DNA of 64,000 nt, taken from an uncultured Gammaproteobacteria bacterium (GTDB taxonomy: Bacteria > Pseudomonadota > Gammaproteobacteria > Pseudomonadales > Pseudohongiellaceae). The notes below the pieces were generated by a model. It ran no database searches, was not told where the DNA came from, and saw only the letters and a program-made list of their open reading frames with translations. The stretch covers positions 1 through 64,000 of the forward strand of contig CAJWVZ010000008.1 in assembly GCA_913048385.1 (NCBI GenBank), in the 5' to 3' direction. Position numbers and translations under genes: made by a program. This document shows, one piece after another, positions 5,811-13,396 of this stretch. The stretch's first letter is position 1. The number at the start of each line of letters is the position of its first letter.

Positions 5811-7061
5811 TTAGTCACCTCCGCGAAGCATAACAATCGGGTTACCTTTTGCCGCTTTATATGCCGGCACTAAAGAAGCACAAACCGAAAGAAAAACCAC
5901 TCCAATAATTATTAGAGCTAAATCAAATATCCGAAGGTCAATCGGCAAGAAATCAAGTGGATAAATCTCTTTGCTCATTAGAGGGCGCCCTAATTGGTTG
6001 TCCAAAAACGAAACAAAGGAATCAATATTAAGAGCACCAAGAACGCCAAGGAAAAGACCAACTCCAGCTCCTAGAACCGCAATCCCCAACCCCTGCAAAA
6101 GGAAGACCTGTGCCACGAGCCATTGAGAGCCGCCCATCGTTTTCAATATCGCAATATCCCCTCTTTTTTCTCTAACGACCATCCGAAGACTGACCACTAA
6201 ATTAAATACAGCAATCATCACAAGAAACCAGAGCATTAACCCTACTATGCTTTTAGACAAACGAATATTTTCATAAATATTTCCGAGTGACGACGTCCAG
6301 CTTACTACTGAAACGTTCTCTGGAAGCGCCTTAAGTAAGTCTAGAGCAATCTCGTCCGCATTCAAAACATCCTCAATTCGGACATTCAAATTAGTTTGCT
6401 CCGATCGCGAGCGAATTAGTCTTCTAGCAGCCTCAATGTTGATCATCACCATGCCTGAATCCAGCGTCTGCGTACCAACATCGTAGATCCCTACCACCGT
6501 GAATCTTTTAAACGTTGGCATTACTGAGACAGGATTTTGTGGTAATCGGGGCGAAAAAATCTCTACACTCTCGCCGATTTCAACTTCAAGCAGCTCTCCA
6601 AGAGTTCTCCCCAAAACAATACCCCATAAGTTTGATTCCAAACCTGGAAGACCACCAGCGATCATAAATTTTTCTATTACAGAGTTCCGAGCTTCAAACT
6701 TCGGGTCTATCCCACTAATTGCCACAGCCTTAACATTTTTAGCACTCGAGGCTACGCCAAAAGCTTCGACGCTATAGCCCGCTGAGATAACACGCGAATC
6801 GGCCTCAACGAACTCCTTAATCTCATCCCAATCATGCTCAGAGGTTATTTCATCCGTAGAAATGGATATGTTAGGAATAACGCCTAGTATGCTTTCGCGC
6901 ATTTCACGATCGAAGCCATTCATCACTGACAAAACCAGTATTAAAATAGCTGTACTAGATACAAGTCCGAGCACAGCGAGGCGCGACATGAATACAGAAA
7001 GGTGACTGTGATTAGAAGTACCGAGGTATCTCAACGCGATGTGCGATGATAAGTTTCTCAT
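5811..7061 (-). CDS. lolE: Lipoprotein-releasing ABC transporter permease (LolC/LolE family)
   Basis: An inner-membrane permease of the exporter that extracts lipoproteins and passes them to LolA. The 416 residues show one N-terminal membrane helix (ILILVLSVMNGF region, about 35-50), a large periplasmic MacB-like domain, and three C-terminal helices. The cytoplasmic coupling segment VREKRGDIAILKTMG is typical of LolC/E. It is last of three in a lol operon, 4 bases after lolD. I name it lolE by position relative to E. coli lolC-lolD-lolE; sequence alone did not let me separate LolC from LolE. It differs in sequence from its partner at 7794-9071, so the exporter is a heterodimer. Confidence 0.9.
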   Translation of the reverse strand: MRNLSSHIALRYLGTSNHSHLSVFMSRLAVLGLVSSTAILILVLSVMNGFDREMRESILGVIPNISISTDEITSEHDWDEIKEFVEADSRVISAGYSVEAFGVASSAKNVKAVAISGIDPKFEARNSVIEKFMIAGGLPGLESNLWGIVLGRTLGELLEVEIGESVEIFSPRLPQNPVSVMPTFKRFTVVGIYDVGTQTLDSGMVMINIEAARRLIRSRSEQTNLNVRIEDVLNADEIALDLLKALPENVSVVSWTSSLGNIYENIRLSKSIVGLMLWFLVMIAVFNLVVSLRMVVREKRGDIAILKTMGGSQWLVAQVFLLQGLGIAVLGAGVGLFLGVLGALNIDSFVSFLDNQLGRPLMSKEIYPLDFLPIDLRIFDLALIIIGVVFLSVCASLVPAYKAAKGNPIVMLRGGD

Positions 7062-7065
7062 AAGC

Positions 7066-7761
7066 TTAAATCGTTAACTTGCCGTCAATTAAAAAGAAGC
7101 AACGATCCATCGACGACGCAAACACCTCGTCATGCGTCACGATTATAAAACTTGTATTGCAGGCAGTATTTAGCTCATTGAGCAAATCGTGGATCCCTAC
7201 TGCTGTTTTTCTATCAAGATTCCCAGTTGGCTCATCCATTAGAATACAGCTCGGCTTTCCAACTAAGGCTCGAGCGATTGCAACTCTTTGCCTTTCGCCC
7301 CCAGACAACTGACTAGGTTTGTGTGTTAGCCTAGCAGAGAGCCCCACACTTGCTAGGACCGCCCTCGCTTCGCTCTGAGCCTCTTTTTTTGACAAGCCGC
7401 GGATCAAGAGAGGCATTGCTGTATTTTCTAAAGCGGTAAACTCATCAAGTAGGTGATGAAATTGATACACAAACCCAAGCTCGAAATTACGCAACTTATT
7501 GAGCTCAGTTTCTCCAGCTTGAGAGAGATTTACTCCTGCGACATGGACTGCACCAGCAGACGGTGCATCCAGACCACCCAACAGATTAAGTAACGTAGTT
7601 TTACCAGACCCCGATGTTCCCATTACGGCGAGCCTTTCTCCCTTTCGAACACTAAAGTCAATATTACTCAGCACCTTAATTTCGGACCCAGCCTCACCAT
7701 ATGTTTTGCTGAGACCGTTACATACCAACACGAAGTCGTCGTGCTCAGAAAGATTTTTCAT
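7066..7761 (-). CDS. lolD: Lipoprotein-releasing ABC transporter ATPase
   Basis: LolD hydrolyses ATP to power lipoprotein release by the LolC/LolE pair. Walker A is GTSGSGKTTLLNLLGG, the Q-loop region reads FVYQFHHLLDEFTALEN (the HHLLxEF stretch is typical of LolD), the ABC signature is LSGGERQRVAIARAL, Walker B is CILMDEPTGNLD, and the H-loop is IIVTHD. The length (about 231) fits the family. I chose the ATG at 7761; GTG codons at 7770 and 7773 are possible starts and no strong Shine-Dalgarno separates them. Confidence 0.95.
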   Translation of the reverse strand: MKNLSEHDDFVLVCNGLSKTYGEAGSEIKVLSNIDFSVRKGERLAVMGTSGSGKTTLLNLLGGLDAPSAGAVHVAGVNLSQAGETELNKLRNFELGFVYQFHHLLDEFTALENTAMPLLIRGLSKKEAQSEARAVLASVGLSARLTHKPSQLSGGERQRVAIARALVGKPSCILMDEPTGNLDRKTAVGIHDLLNELNTACNTSFIIVTHDEVFASSMDRCFFLIDGKLTI

Positions 7762-7793
7762 ATTGCACACCACTTTTACAGTACGACCTTGCT

Positions 7794-9071
7794 TTATTCA
7801 TAACGAAGCACATCAACCGGCATAACTTTACTCGCGGTTACTGCCGGATATAAAGTCGCGGCCATACTAACGCCAAGTGCCCCGGCCGCAACAAGCATTG
7901 ATTCCGACCAAATCAACTCTGCTTTCAAATGGGATAAAAAATAGATCTGTTTTTCAGAGGAAAAACTTGCAACCAGCGTCTCGAGGGCAAGACCAATATC
8001 AGTTAGATTTAGCGTTATCAGCACACCCAAAATCACTCCTAAAAAAGCCCCCAATAAACCAACTACAAACCCTTGAATCATAAAGACTAGCGATACTTCA
8101 AATCGAGATATACCCATCGTCCTCAAGATAGCAACATCAGCTTTTTTTTCCGAAACCATCATAACAAGGGTCGAAATTATATTTACCGCTCCAATAATTA
8201 CAATCATGAAAAGCATAATGCTGGTAAGAAGCTTCTCCATTTGTAACGCGTTAAAAAGACTAGCTTCACTCTCGCGCCATGTCGTTCCTTTAAGACTTGC
8301 GAGCTCTTGGTCTTTATCTGAAAGATTGCTTAGAAATTTTTTTACAACTGTCATAACTTGAACTTTCGCAGGGCCAGGAGCTTCTAAGTTCGTGAGTTTG
8401 AGGCGCAGCTGGAATCCATTTTGTTCAGCATTTTTAAATAACTTTTCTGCTGACGACAACGCAATAAGCGCGAGATCCCCACTTCCGTATATCCCTAAAT
8501 CAACACCTCCGAGAACGGAAAAAGCCTTGGTATTCTTTAAGTCCCTCTGAACCAGCCTCTTTAGCGAATTGAGCCTTACTTCATCTGAATTAGATTGCCG
8601 AACAATGCCCAACAAACGGTATCCCAAAATCAGTCCAGAATCATGAAGCCTTAAATCGTCCAACAGATCTCTGTATGTCGAATTCGCATTCGTTACTACA
8701 GACCTCTCTCTCGCGGGATCAACACCGCGAACCCTAACAAATTGGGTTGCCCCATTTTTGCTGATTGCAGCTTCTCCCTCAACGAATGGAGCAACCGCCT
8801 CAACATAGTCAAGATCCAACAGGAGCTGAATCAGTTCCTCCGACCAAACCGATCGGTTGTTATAACTTACAGTCAAATGGGGCACAGATTTGAGCACTTC
8901 CGAGCGAAGGGTAGTGATTGAGCCATTCATTATGGATAGCACAATTATTAAGATTGCAACACCTAGGCCTATTCCTAGCATAGAAATTGAGGACACGATC
9001 GATAGAAAGGTATGTTTTTTGCTGGAAAAAATGTAACGCAAGCCAATAAAAAGGGGCAGTGCCTGTAGCAT
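7794..9071 (-). CDS. lolC: Lipoprotein-releasing ABC transporter permease (LolC/LolE family)
   Basis: The first gene of the lol operon and second permease of the lipoprotein exporter, 425 residues. It opens with LPLFIGLRYIFSSKK, close to the FIGLRY start of E. coli LolC and LolE. A first membrane helix (about 25-50), a periplasmic domain and three C-terminal helices follow, with VSEKKADVAILRTMG as the coupling segment. The ATG at 9071 is preceded by AGGGAGA. Named lolC by position; the LolC/LolE assignment is uncertain. The recombinase-like gene lies 54 bases upstream on the same strand and could share its transcript. Confidence 0.9.
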   Translation of the reverse strand: MLQALPLFIGLRYIFSSKKHTFLSIVSSISMLGIGLGVAILIIVLSIMNGSITTLRSEVLKSVPHLTVSYNNRSVWSEELIQLLLDLDYVEAVAPFVEGEAAISKNGATQFVRVRGVDPARERSVVTNANSTYRDLLDDLRLHDSGLILGYRLLGIVRQSNSDEVRLNSLKRLVQRDLKNTKAFSVLGGVDLGIYGSGDLALIALSSAEKLFKNAEQNGFQLRLKLTNLEAPGPAKVQVMTVVKKFLSNLSDKDQELASLKGTTWRESEASLFNALQMEKLLTSIMLFMIVIIGAVNIISTLVMMVSEKKADVAILRTMGISRFEVSLVFMIQGFVVGLLGAFLGVILGVLITLNLTDIGLALETLVASFSSEKQIYFLSHLKAELIWSESMLVAAGALGVSMAATLYPAVTASKVMPVDVLRYE

Positions 9072-9125: not shown

Positions 9126-9821
9126 CTAGATCGAATTTATTCCACTTTCATTTTGATGACGCTGCAACACCCGTTGCACCGTTTTAAAGCTGATCGGCAT
9201 AACCGGCGTTGAAACGGCGCTCGATATTGCTCGAAGAGATTTGCCTTCTTTTTTTAAACTGAAGATAGTCTTCACAATTCTTTGCTCCATCGGGTTTTCA
9301 ATCAATCGTCCATTATCATGAATTAAAAACCCAAACGGTCGGCTCCCTCCGAGGTATCGCCCTTCGTCCTTTTGCCTCTTCTTAACTTTCTTAATTCTTT
9401 CCTTTGATCTTCGTTTCTCAAGCATTGCGAAGGACTCAGCCACTCTTGGAAACAACACACCGTCCGTTTCGTTCAACATACTCCCACCCAAATCTAGAAC
9501 ATGGAGGGCAACGTCAAGGGTTGAAAAAATTTTAAGTGACTTCACAACTTCCTCACTGTTGGTAAAAATGCGCTGCAATTGACTACAAAGAACTGCGTCT
9601 CCCGGCTTGAGGCACTTCAACATTTCGACAGCGGAAGGCCGAGTCGAAAATCCATCCTTCAAGTTGCAACCAAGATCAGCAAAACTCCGGGCTAAATACC
9701 AACCTTTCTCTAGGCAGTAAGTGTTTATCTCTAGCTCCTCTGATTGCAAACAGGCGCTAAACTCTTTTCCCCTAAAAATTTCTTCTAGCTCAGTGGTGCA
9801 ACTATACGCGTATACTGTCAT
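9126..9821 (-). CDS. Serine-recombinase-like protein with substituted catalytic residues
   Basis: A 231-residue protein with the layout of a small serine recombinase: an N-terminal resolvase fold (about 1-135), a long basic helix (EKRRSKERIKKVKKR), then a short recombinase-type DNA-binding domain (RPFGFLIHDNGRL, SLRAISSAV, TVQRVL). The conserved RPxxxxML and GD motifs remain. Aligned by eye to gamma-delta resolvase, however, Arg8 is Tyr6, the nucleophile Ser10 is Cys8, Asp67 is Gln83 and Arg71 is Thr87; Arg68 (R84) and Arg45 (R61) are kept. Strand cleavage is therefore doubtful. The ATG at 9821 follows AAGGGGA, so I prefer it to a TTG at 9845. No inverted repeats or mobile genes surround it. 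It may be a domesticated DNA-binding protein; its function is unknown. Confidence 0.75.
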   Translation of the reverse strand: MTVYAYSCTTELEEIFRGKEFSACLQSEELEINTYCLEKGWYLARSFADLGCNLKDGFSTRPSAVEMLKCLKPGDAVLCSQLQRIFTNSEEVVKSLKIFSTLDVALHVLDLGGSMLNETDGVLFPRVAESFAMLEKRRSKERIKKVKKRQKDEGRYLGGSRPFGFLIHDNGRLIENPMEQRIVKTIFSLKKEGKSLRAISSAVSTPVMPISFKTVQRVLQRHQNESGINSI

Positions 9822-10271
9822 GGGTCCCCTTGAAGAATCTGCCAATGACTCGGGAATTGAAAAGTTAACACTAACGGCTCTCTAATTTGAGGCGTGTCAG
9901 TGCTCGATCACGAAAACGCTCTTATTCTAGCCGGTCAGCTGGCAGAGAATCAAGGGGTCGCAAACTTGAACAAAGCAATAAACTGTGTTTTTTTGCTTTA
10001 AAAATTATAATATTTATATAAATCAATAATTTAATGCCAACTTCTACTAATATGCGTCGTAAAGGCGATTGAGATTTCTGATTTATATTGGTACACTATT
10101 AATACGAAACTATGTAGTGCGTTAATTTCTTCGGTTTGTAACGCTTGAAGACCACGATAAAGAATTGATGACCTTTGCCCGTCTGAGTAAGAAATTTAGA
10201 GCTGGGTGAAGATTAACAGACTAGATTAGAAGTCATTCGTAAAACTAGAATAAAGCAGTAAATCGATTAGC

Positions 10272-10490
10272 AAAAGCCACAACAGCAATATTGCACAACA
10301 AAAATGGCTTTTGGCCGATGTAATAAAAATGGTCGTAAGGAATAATAAGACTGACGCAAGGCTTTATTAACGAGGTTTTAGACCTCTGAAACATTTGGCC
10401 TACAATTTTATAAAACCGTCAGCAAATGTTTGTAACCGACCAAAATTCATATGCTCGTGTAAAACACGGCAAGTCCAGAGAAAGTTGGAC
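10272..10490 (+). promoter_or_regulatory. Cluster of four inverted repeats upstream of rne
   Basis: Four potential RNA hairpins occur within 220 bases. They are: AAAAGCCA/TGGCTTTT at 10272-10279 and 10305-10312, enclosing the palindrome GCAATATTGC (10285-10294); GAGGT/ACCTC at 10372-10386; AACATTTG/CAAATGTT at 10390-10397 and 10423-10430; and GTCCA/TGGAC at 10473-10490. All lie on the rne side of the gap. By analogy with the E. coli rne leader, where RNase E cuts its own structured 5' end, this is a candidate feedback region. The analogy is inference; the repeats themselves are visible. Confidence 0.45.
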
Positions 10491-10604
10491 CAATAATTAG
10501 AGGCTCTCGCAATATACGATACAGATAGCGAGATGCCAGAGTAACTGATTTAGAACGAGTAAAATCAAGAGGCAAAGAGTTTCGAAGTTTTATGTTGTCG
10601 AGTT

Positions 10605-10623
10605 GGGTTTTTTTCGTAAGCCC
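10605..10623 (+). promoter_or_regulatory. Hairpin GGGTTT/AAGCCC in the rne upstream region
   Basis: A six-pair stem with one G-U pair and a U-rich loop, about 170 bases before the rne start. The T-run lies in the loop rather than after the stem, so it is not a terminator. It may be part of the rne leader structure. Confidence 0.3.
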
Positions 10624-10716
10624 TTGCTGAAAACACTGAACTTTGGAGAAAGTCCGCGGTTTGGATTTCCTTGCTTGGCAAAATATTACTATTTTTTTAC
10701 TCGATCAGTTCCTTCT

Positions 10717-10743
10717 GAAAATTCGATTTTTTGAAGAATTTTC
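10717..10743 (+). promoter_or_regulatory. Perfect 8-bp inverted repeat just before rne
   Basis: GAAAATTC and GAATTTTC flank an 11-base loop and end 52 bases before the rne ATG. It is AT-rich and could be a leader hairpin or a protein operator. The ribosome-binding site AGGGAAG (about 10778-10784) lies downstream and is not covered. Confidence 0.4.
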
Positions 10744-10795
10744 CTGTTATAGCCCCAACTTTCACTCTCTGGAACAATAGGGAAGTGAAACTACA

Positions 10796-13396
10796 ATGAA
10801 AAGAATGCTTATCAATGCCACCCAAGAAGAAGAGCTCAGAGTAGCTCTCGTCGACGGTCAGCGTCTCTACGATCTCGATATAGAGAACCGCACTAGAATT
10901 CAAAAAAAAGCAAACATATATAAAGGTAAAATCACTCGCGTCGAACCGAGTCTTGAGGCAGCGTTCGTAAACTTTGGCGCGGAGAGACATGGCTTTTTGC
11001 CGCTCAAAGAGATTTCGCCAAGTTATTATGCGAAGGAACCCCGAGTCAATGGGGAGCGAACAAAAATAAAAGAGCTGATTCCCGAAGGGACTGAGGTAAT
11101 TGTTCAGGTTGAAAAAGAAGAGCGCGGGAACAAAGGTGCAGCTTTAACCACTTACATTAGCTTAGCTGGACGTTATCTCGTTTTGATGCCAAACAACCCT
11201 AAGGCTGGTGGAATCTCGCGACGCATTGAAGGTGACGAAAGAACTGAGCTCCGAGAAGCACTCAGAAATCTAACTCTGCCAGAAGAAATGGGCATGATTG
11301 TTAGAACAGCGGGGATAGGAAAAGGTCAAGAAGAATTGCAATGGGACCTAAACTATTTAACGGCTCTCTGGGAAGCAATAGGAAGTGCTGCCGAAAGCAA
11401 GCAAGCTCCTTTTCTGATCTACCAAGAGAGCAACGTTATAATTCGCACCATACGAGATTACTTGAGGAAAGATATTGGCGAGGTCCTCTTCGATACAAAA
11501 GAATCTTTTGATGAAGCGATTACATTCGTTAAGCAGGTTATGCCGCAATATGAACCGCAAATAAAGCTTTACACAGACGAATTGCCACTATTCAGCAGAT
11601 ATCAAATTGAAAGCCAAATAGAGAGCGCATTTGAGCGTGAGGTAAAATTACCCTCGGGAGGTTCTGTCGTTATTGATCCCACTGAGGCGCTAATCTCCAT
11701 TGACATCAATTCTTCCAAAGCAACAAGGGGCGCAGACATCGAAGAAACTGCCCTAAACACTAATTTAGAAGCTGCCGATGAAATAGCCCGCCAACTTCGA
11801 TTGCGCGACATGGGTGGATTGGCAGTGATCGACTTTATTGACATGCTCTCACCGAGCAACCAACGCCAGGTTGAAAATAGGATGCGTGACGCCCTCGAAC
11901 CTGACAGAGCAAGAGTTCAAGTCGGAAGGATTTCAAGGTTCGGTCTACTGGAAATGTCGCGTCAACGATTAAGACCGTCACTTGGCGAAACGAGTGCTAT
12001 TGTTTGCCCGAGATGCAGCGGACAAGGATTTATTCGGGACATTGAATCACTGTCGCTGTCCGTATTGAGAATCGTTCAAGAGGAAGCTAATAAAGACAAA
12101 TGCCAAGAAGTAAAAGCAGCAGTTCCACTAGCCATATCCTCTTATCTGCTCAACGAGAAAAGGGCTGCCCTAGCGGAGATTGAAAAGCAAAGCGCTACTA
12201 GAGTTACAATTAGCGCGAATCCAAAACTAGAAACCCCTCATTATGAAATCACCGGCGTAAACAAAAATTCAGAAACATATGAAGTCGAGGTCACTGCGTT
12301 ACCGGAACCCAGTCCGAATAACAAACCTGCTCAGACCGACGCCTTAATTCAAAAGCCTGCTGTCCGAAGCATCCCAATTCCGGCAGGTCCCGCGCCGAAT
12401 AAATCTTCTAACCGAAGCAAAGGCCTAATTGCTCGACTTTTGATTGCGCTTCAAAGCATTTTTAGCCGGAATCCAGCCCGTAGGAAAAGACCCAGCCAAA
12501 GATCCTCGAATCACCGAAATAGAAATCGGCAATCAACACGCGGTCACCAACAAAATCGTAATGGTCGTCGAAACGAGCGCAAGGGTGATATGCGCCAACG
12601 CCCTGTTCCATCTAATACAAAAAATCGTTCTCGCTCAGGACACGATAAGAATCTTGGAACCCGTAACAGCGTAAGTGACAGGAAGAACAACTCAAATACG
12701 AGCAATGAATCAAACCTTAGTGATTCTAATTCACGCAGCACGGCTAAATCAAACGATCGAACTGAGGCGCATCCTAAATCTGATAATGAAAATAATAATA
12801 AAGCTTTTGAGAGACGCGCACCTAATCAGAGAACCAAAAACACTTCTTCCCGTCGACGAGGGCCGCGTGATGCTCGACCTAGCGCTCCTAAACCCCTTGA
12901 TGATAATGGTGACGTTAATGGCAATATTATTGACGCTAAAGCCTTCACAAGCGAGGCCAAAGAGAATACAACCAAACCATCACGAAACCCAAGATCAAAA
13001 GATGGTCCTCGAGCGTCTTCCAGTGCCGACACAAGCCCCGAGGACAATAAAAATATAGCAGCAACGCAGTCGGAGGAACCAACAAACAGATCAAAAAATG
13101 CAAAGGATTCCGATCATATGAAGGACACTGGGGCTCAAAGAAGCTCAAAGGATTTACGTTCCAAGGACAAAGAATCATCAGGTTTTGTCACTTCATTATC
13201 AGCCGCTCAAACCGCTCCCACTCCAGCAAGCACAACAAAAGAAAAGACTGAAATAAAAGGGCCAGCGACGAACTCCAAGGATGACTCTAATTCTTCTATG
13301 AAAGGTGCGCAGGGCGTGTCCAAGAAACAACGAGCCGCAAATGATCCGAGAGAGATAGCTCGTAGAGCAAAAGAAGGTGAAAAGCTAACCCGATAG
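10796..13396 (+). CDS. rne: Ribonuclease E
   Basis: The main endonuclease of mRNA decay and of rRNA and tRNA processing, and scaffold of the degradosome. The catalytic half matches E. coli residue for residue: S1 domain near 35-125, D303, N305 and D346 for Mg binding, and the zinc-link C404-P-R-C407. After about residue 520 the sequence becomes disordered and rich in Arg, Asn, Ser and Lys. An amphipathic helix [17 protein letters not shown] (about 543-559) resembles the membrane anchor of RNase E. A basic tail ([15 protein letters not shown]) ends the protein. At 866 residues the scaffold half is shorter than in E. coli (1061). The start follows AGGGAAG. rluC, the usual divergent neighbour in enterics, is absent. 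Confidence 0.96.

Follow-up and report, generated by a model that had tools for sequence, protein, structure and literature searches.

The residues that matter most in Tn3 resolvase are Y6, R8, S10, D36, R68, and R71. Arginines 8, 68, and 71 are the active-site arginines of small serine recombinases, and the crossover site of a resolvase measures about 26-28 bp. The Tn3 resolvase TnpR is reported to repress via res sites that contain the promoters (PMC7157771). A recombinase fold without recombination is described for MrpR (YopR), the master repressor of the SPbeta prophage (PMC10516654). Among the mobile-element genes that prokaryotes have taken over, a review mentions serine recombinases used for inversion and for integration or excision (PMC8987985).

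We analyzed a 64,000-nucleotide stretch of DNA from an uncultured gammaproteobacterium of the family Pseudohongiellaceae (the window), in which a gene for a serine-recombinase-like protein lies upstream of genes of the lolC, lolD, and lolE types (Table 1). The window protein matches the Pfam family Resolvase (PF00239) with 46.8 bits against a cut-off of 23.3. Its AlphaFold2 model, computed with an input alignment of 26 family members, has a mean pLDDT of 81 and a pTM of 0.61. The PDB structures that matched the model are serine recombinases, with 1gdt, 1zr2, and 5cy1 among the best and Gin (3uj3) also present, and every PDB sequence matched by a profile of the family is a serine recombinase or an integrase. 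Thus, the window protein has a serine-recombinase fold, as proposed by an earlier reading made from the sequence only. The sequence-only reading also placed the gene between lolC and rne, and indeed lolC follows downstream on the same strand, with rne divergent upstream. For each of the three downstream neighbors, a Lol family is the best NCBIfam model, with a score under the curated cut-off. The stretch of approximately 870 bp from the promoter of the gene to the rne start codon (9930-10795) is probably a long rne leader region.

Table 1. Features of the resolvase-like gene, its putative promoter and operator, and its neighbors (window positions)
Feature	Position	Strand	Basis
Serine-recombinase-like protein gene, 231 aa, ATG start	9126..9821, including stop codon	-	ORF and Pfam; family matched in 107/137 genomes
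Catalytic-type half, residues 1-140, resolvase fold	9402..9821	-	Alignments and AlphaFold2 model
Codon of Cys8 (at Arg8)	9798-9800	-	Alignments
Codon of Thr10 (at Ser10)	9792-9794	-	Alignments
Codon of Gln83 (at Asp67)	9573-9575	-	Alignments
Codon of Thr87 (at Arg71)	9561-9563	-	Alignments
C-terminal DNA-binding half, residues 141-231, strong family conservation	9129..9401	-	Identity; helices in AlphaFold2 model
Putative operator, inverted repeat CGTTTTCGTG-ATCGAG-CACTGACACG, diverged form of the family site	9893..9918 (28-column site 9893-9920)	-	Matrix; form single-copy in genome
TAGAAT as -10 hexamer, immediately preceding the repeat	9924..9929	-	Promoter reading
-35-like hexamer TTGATT, 18-bp spacer	9948..9953	-	Consensus match only
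lolC-type permease gene, 54 bp past the resolvase-like gene	7794..9071	-	NCBIfam lolCE TIGR02212 best, 302 bits, below cut-off of 362
lolD-type ATPase gene	7066..7773	-	TIGR02211, 300 bits, cut-off 308
lolE-type permease gene	5811..7061	-	TIGR02212, 340 bits, cut-off 362
rne (RNase E), divergent neighbor	10796..13396	+	Linked in 86/117 loci; absent in 22 holding at least 2 kb upstream

We consider it likely that this gene encodes a domesticated, vertically inherited, non-catalytic small serine resolvase that autoregulates the lolCDE operon. The ancestral resolvase would have kept the promoter-binding part of its work and stopped recombining. Its conserved C-terminal half would bind, as a dimer, a 26-bp inverted repeat of its own promoter that would cover the transcription start and the early transcribed region. 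Binding would set, most likely repress, an operon starting with the gene itself and running into lolCDE, and the N-terminal resolvase fold would be retained for dimerization and shape, not for DNA cutting. The basis at the sequence level is the fold, the place before lolC, the loss of catalytic residues, purifying selection, the repeat past the -10 box, the rarity of this repeat in the genomes, and its absence together with the gene. We infer that the protein binds the repeat, that the effect is repression and not activation, and that lolCDE is cotranscribed and is the target that matters; since a single site lies over the start of an operon running into lolCDE, binding should repress.

The gene was matched in 49 of 61 genomes of the window's genus and in 107 of 137 genomes of its family, one of these matches (genome G136) being a remnant only. 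It is therefore dispensable, given that the other 30 family genomes gave no match. High-scoring relatives outside the family were found neither among 293 genomes of the order nor among 274 of the class. The order search returned 8 genomes of the window's family at 205-364 bits (4 others of the family were unmatched) and 12 genomes of other families at up to 61.5 bits, and the class search returned one other match, at 59 bits. For the family alignment, 117 loci were used, corresponding to 85 distinct proteins because many loci are the same genome fetched via two collections. In 114 of the 117 loci, lolC is next on the same strand, and the remaining three (L030, L072, and L109) stop at a contig end. 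The lolC start lies past the aligned gene end in 106 loci and within its last bases in 8 (L101-L103, L105-L107, L110, and L114). Divergent rne was detected within 2 kb in 86 loci; it was not found in 22 loci with at least 2 kb of upstream sequence, in which lolC is still kept. The distances between pairs of proteins correlate with those between the corresponding LolC pairs (r=0.75 over 75 loci, a value that none of 1000 permutations reached), which is what vertical inheritance would predict.

The most diverged members belong to the genus g6 (L123, L124, L125, and L186-L189). They have residues inserted after the Arg45 region and Gln at Asp67, their -10 box is nearly at the start codon, and lolC lies a few bases past the gene; of the 15 g6 genomes in the family set, 11 gave no match to it. 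Records titled Klebsiella pneumoniae (L095 and L114) and Dehalococcoidia (L080) also carry the gene of this family with lolC nearby, and they look like mislabelled or mis-binned metagenome assemblies.

Reading the sequences upstream of the gene, we found a repeated GACACA block. The family consensus is an inverted repeat, GTGGCTTTG-N6-CAAAGACAC. A 28-column site matrix was seeded from the block seen by eye and applied to upstream regions of up to 500 bp; L101 was omitted because its match lacks the N-terminus. The site is present in 80 of 84 upstream regions. Three of the remaining four (L047, L058, and L109) carry it about 490-690 bp upstream, and the fourth region (L085) is only 153 bp long. 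The best of 84 simple shuffles was beaten by 78 of the 84 regions, a comparison that is not independent because the matrix was trained on the sites it then scored. Among 64 distinct sites, the mean complementary fraction is 0.64 about the repeat axis versus 0.20-0.41 about four shifted axes. A TAnnnT hexamer is located ahead of the site in 76 of 80 cases, a figure inflated by picking the best hexamer in a stretch of approximately 25 bp, and the gap is exactly 10 bp in 41 of the 80. The distance from the site to the start codon, on the other hand, varies from 3 to 352 bp. The hexamer gap and the variable start-codon distance indicate that the site keeps its place relative to the promoter more than relative to the ORF. 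At the level of sequence, the dyad overlaps the gene's own promoter; this conserved inverted repeat just past the predicted -10 box goes beyond the sequence-only reading. The window site scores 9.3 bits in the family matrix, and only L050, L111, and L113 score lower among the 80.

The 137 family genomes were searched with the pattern GTGNCNTTGN6CANNGACACA. Exact matches were found in 44 genomes, a single one per genome and always at most 800 bp upstream of the gene; none was present elsewhere in the 137 genomes. Since the pattern was drawn from the same upstream regions, the telling point is the absence of exact matches elsewhere. With one mismatch, 60 matches were detected, 21 upstream of the gene and 39 elsewhere. 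With the pattern read backward as a control, 27 matches at 0-1 mismatch turned up in the same genomes, and therefore most of the 39 off-gene matches may be due to chance. Nine of the 39 were inspected (two in G000, the genome of the window, and one each in G028, G110, G113, G126, G030, G033, and G129); eight lie inside ORFs of more than 150 codons, and only the G129 match lies outside such ORFs. The window's diverged form of the site is not among the 44 exact or the 60 one-mismatch matches. This form, common to the window and G028, is single-copy within 2 mismatches in G000 and in G028, in both cases upstream of the gene. The family matrix gives 28.5 and 14.7 to two matches inside ORFs elsewhere in G000, more than the 9.3 of the window site.

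Is the repeat lost together with the gene? Of the 31 genomes without an intact gene (the 30 unmatched ones and G136), 22 gave a lolC-like match. Seventeen loci without an intact gene (L139-L155) have a LolC match and 599-1500 bp of upstream sequence, and a comparable site is absent from all 17. Their best site scores range from -13.4 to 10.1, the top one being on the other strand; the median in gene-bearing upstream regions is 31, and the 10th percentile is 10. One of these loci, L149 in G136, makes gene loss visible at an intermediate stage: its positions 1017-1436 hold, upstream of lolC, a decayed remnant of the C-terminal half of the gene together with a relic site. The relic scores 3.3 bits and is located in the expected place after a TACAAT box.

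Five gene-bearing genomes (G129, G081, G082, G087, and G094) have no site that scores like the others in 1.1-1.5 kb upstream. In the four g6 genomes G081, G082, G087, and G094, lolC follows the gene end very closely, and a TAGAAT resembling a -10 box sits almost at the start codon; either their operator has diverged beyond recognition or the role of the protein differs. G129 is the sole g1 genome found with the gene but without the site at its promoter. It has a near-perfect dyad of 28.4 bits on another contig (L177, G129:C76, about 1377-1406), at a place without a long ORF. Thus, the gene can occur without a recognizable site, and the site can occur away from the gene. The site-less promoters, the G129 dyad, the weak score of the window site, the two higher-scoring matches inside ORFs of G000, the training of the matrix on the sites it scored, and the dispensability of the gene count against our account. 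The first two, and the position of the repeat at the expected 5' end of the RNA, would fit a repeat that is a 5' RNA hairpin or the site of an unrelated regulator, with another lolCDE-linked role for the resolvase-like protein. We regard this as unlikely in view of the 17 lolC loci that lack both intact gene and repeat and of the 137 genomes without an exact match away from the gene. The arms show no covariation beyond column composition, which speaks weakly against an RNA stem; this is a weak test, as many columns barely vary.

The N-terminus of the window protein, MTVYAYSCTTELE, aligns gap-free with the usual start of the family, MTIYSYCRTSELE, as well as with plasmid resolvases, which read Y-x-R-V-S. 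In this register, therefore, Cys8 takes the place of Arg8 and Thr10 that of the Ser10 nucleophile. The sequence-only reading had put Cys8 at Ser10 and Tyr6 at Arg8, two residues off at the N-terminus. Its assignments of Gln83 to Asp67 and of Thr87 to Arg71 were correct, and its claim that catalytic residues are substituted stands, though in another N-terminal register. The Cys nucleophile it offered as an alternative rests on the misalignment and is ruled out by the register. So is Ser7 as nucleophile, column 7 being variable.

Of the 85 distinct sequences (one of which lacks the N-terminus), 77 carry Arg in column 8 and 80 carry Ser in column 10. Tyr6 is a conserved tyrosine, columns 61 (Arg45) and 84 (Arg68) are Arg in all 85, and column 49, our assignment for Asp36, holds Asp in 73 sequences and Glu in the other 12. 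The residue at Asp67 (column 83) is replaced in all members, by Glu in 83, by Gln in the window, and by Leu in the window's sister. At Arg71 (column 87), Ser is found in 78, Gly in 5, Thr in 2, and Arg in none. The set R8/S10/R45/E67/R68/S71 is shared by 75 of the 85. Five sequences combine R8 to A with R71 to G (L111-L113, L115, and L116), two have S10 to T with R8 kept (L103 and L105), and two, the window and its sister (the group of the window plus L002/L038), combine R8 to C with S10 to T. Arg8 and/or Ser10 are therefore lost in three groups including that of the window, and the gene and lolC are kept throughout. The window protein retains Tyr6, Asp49, Arg61 (Arg45), and Arg84 (Arg68). The latter is the only one of the active-site arginines 8, 68, and 71 that it keeps, with Cys8 at position 8 and Thr87 at position 71, and the serine nucleophile at position 10 is absent. 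Judged by the alignment, no member seen retains the catalytic arginine Arg71, and further catalytic residues are lost in three groups. Beyond what had been noted for the window, the replacement of Asp67 and the loss of Arg71 are thus family-wide in the aligned sequences.

These losses bear on the question of whether the protein is still an active site-specific recombinase, with the Ser10 members cutting and recombining the repeat and the window using Thr10 or Cys8. The intact fold in the AlphaFold2 model and its PDB matches, the retention of Tyr6, Arg8, Ser10, Arg45, and Arg68 in most members, and a dyad of approximately 26-28 bp, the size of a resolvase crossover site, would be consistent with activity. 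We nevertheless find it improbable, because Arg71 and Asp67 are missing from all members, the synteny with lolC is fixed, and the gene was kept where R8 or S10 was lost. Furthermore, exact sites are single-copy in the 44 genomes, and thus no partner recombination site was found; G000 (98.9% complete) has no second copy within 2 mismatches, and a more diverged partner could escape this search.

Canonical relatives were found on plasmids. 'Recombinase family proteins' of Methylobacterium, Gluconobacter, and Photobacterium plasmids are 28-35% identical to the family member L039 over nearly the full length and 22-33% identical to the window protein. A GRYLGG..PFG motif is common to the family and the Methylobacterium bullatum and Gluconobacter plasmid proteins. 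Unlike the family, all four plasmid relatives keep R8, S10, D67, R68, and R71, and no match to lolC, lolD, lolE, or rne was detected in the 4-7 kb stretches around them. Close homologs with the canonical residues in mobile elements, which the sequence-only reading had named as an argument against domestication, are represented only by these distant out-groups.

Compared with the described systems, the domesticated resolvase proposed here resembles the Tn3/gamma-delta TnpR resolvases in its fold and in the order of a catalytic-type half followed by a C-terminal DNA-binding part. The dyad over its own promoter is comparable, at sequence level only, to the res-mediated autorepression described for Tn3 (PMC7157771). 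In contrast to TnpR, the window family is fixed beside chromosomal lolCDE, has a single site instead of a multi-part res, and lacks Arg71 throughout, with Ser10 and Arg8 also missing in the window. MrpR (PMC10516654) is likewise a recombinase fold turned repressor; however, it has a tyrosine-recombinase fold of another superfamily, is phage-borne, and binds a repeated element of the phage genome. The DNA invertases Hin and Gin share the serine-recombinase fold and a role in gene regulation. However, Hin regulates by flipping DNA, and the part of the review that describes this (PMC8987985) does not mention a comparable serine-recombinase regulator. A search of the accessible literature found no paper combining 'lolC' and 'serine recombinase' and, in titles and abstract openings, no such regulator of lolCDE.

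The retention of both R8 and S10 in 75 of the 85 sequences also counts against our account, as these residues are not obviously required for pure DNA binding. Conceivably, though this is very doubtful, the majority lineages keep Arg8-Ser10 for a reversible attack on the operator (nicking or covalent capture without strand exchange) that would sense supercoiling or stress at the lolCDE promoter, and the window lineage keeps binding only. A general, weakly specific nucleoid-type DNA-binding protein, as suggested by the sequence-only reading and compatible with the DNA-binding half, is highly improbable: the fixed operon position, the conserved recognition half, and the single-copy exact site, matched only upstream of the gene, point to one target. 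The other suggestion of that reading, a domesticated regulator and not an active recombinase, gains from the fixed lolC synteny, the catalytic losses in three groups, and the conserved promoter dyad; its regulator part is putative.

Mean pairwise identity is 45% in residues 1-140, 79% in residues 141-223, and 52% in LolC. The nearest relative found is 79% identical to the window protein, with the frame kept. In the window/L038 pair, pN/pS is 0.153/0.76 in the N-terminal half, 0.074/0.58 in the C-terminal half, and 0.116/0.58 in lolC. All ten sister pairs show pN below pS in both halves, with a ratio of at most about 0.4; in each pair, the C-terminal half has the lower pN. This agrees with the earlier statement that the gene shows no decay. 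A non-functional passenger heading for loss, which the 30 unmatched family genomes and the L149 remnant might suggest, is hardly credible against this constraint and the strong conservation of the C-terminal half across the bacterial family. Since constraint persists in the window/L038 pair after the loss of R8 and S10, the retained function does not seem to need the nucleophile, as judged from these substitution rates.

The product of lolCDE is essential in Escherichia coli (PMC5105897). If our account of a domesticated autoregulator is true, a candidate regulator would be added to lipoprotein export. Inside transposons, resolvases are known repressors of their own promoters, and here the repressor half alone seems to be retained. 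With the operon unchanged, the family offers a natural series of active sites that runs from near-canonical to dead, and the route from a DNA-cutting enzyme to a transcription factor would become directly testable.
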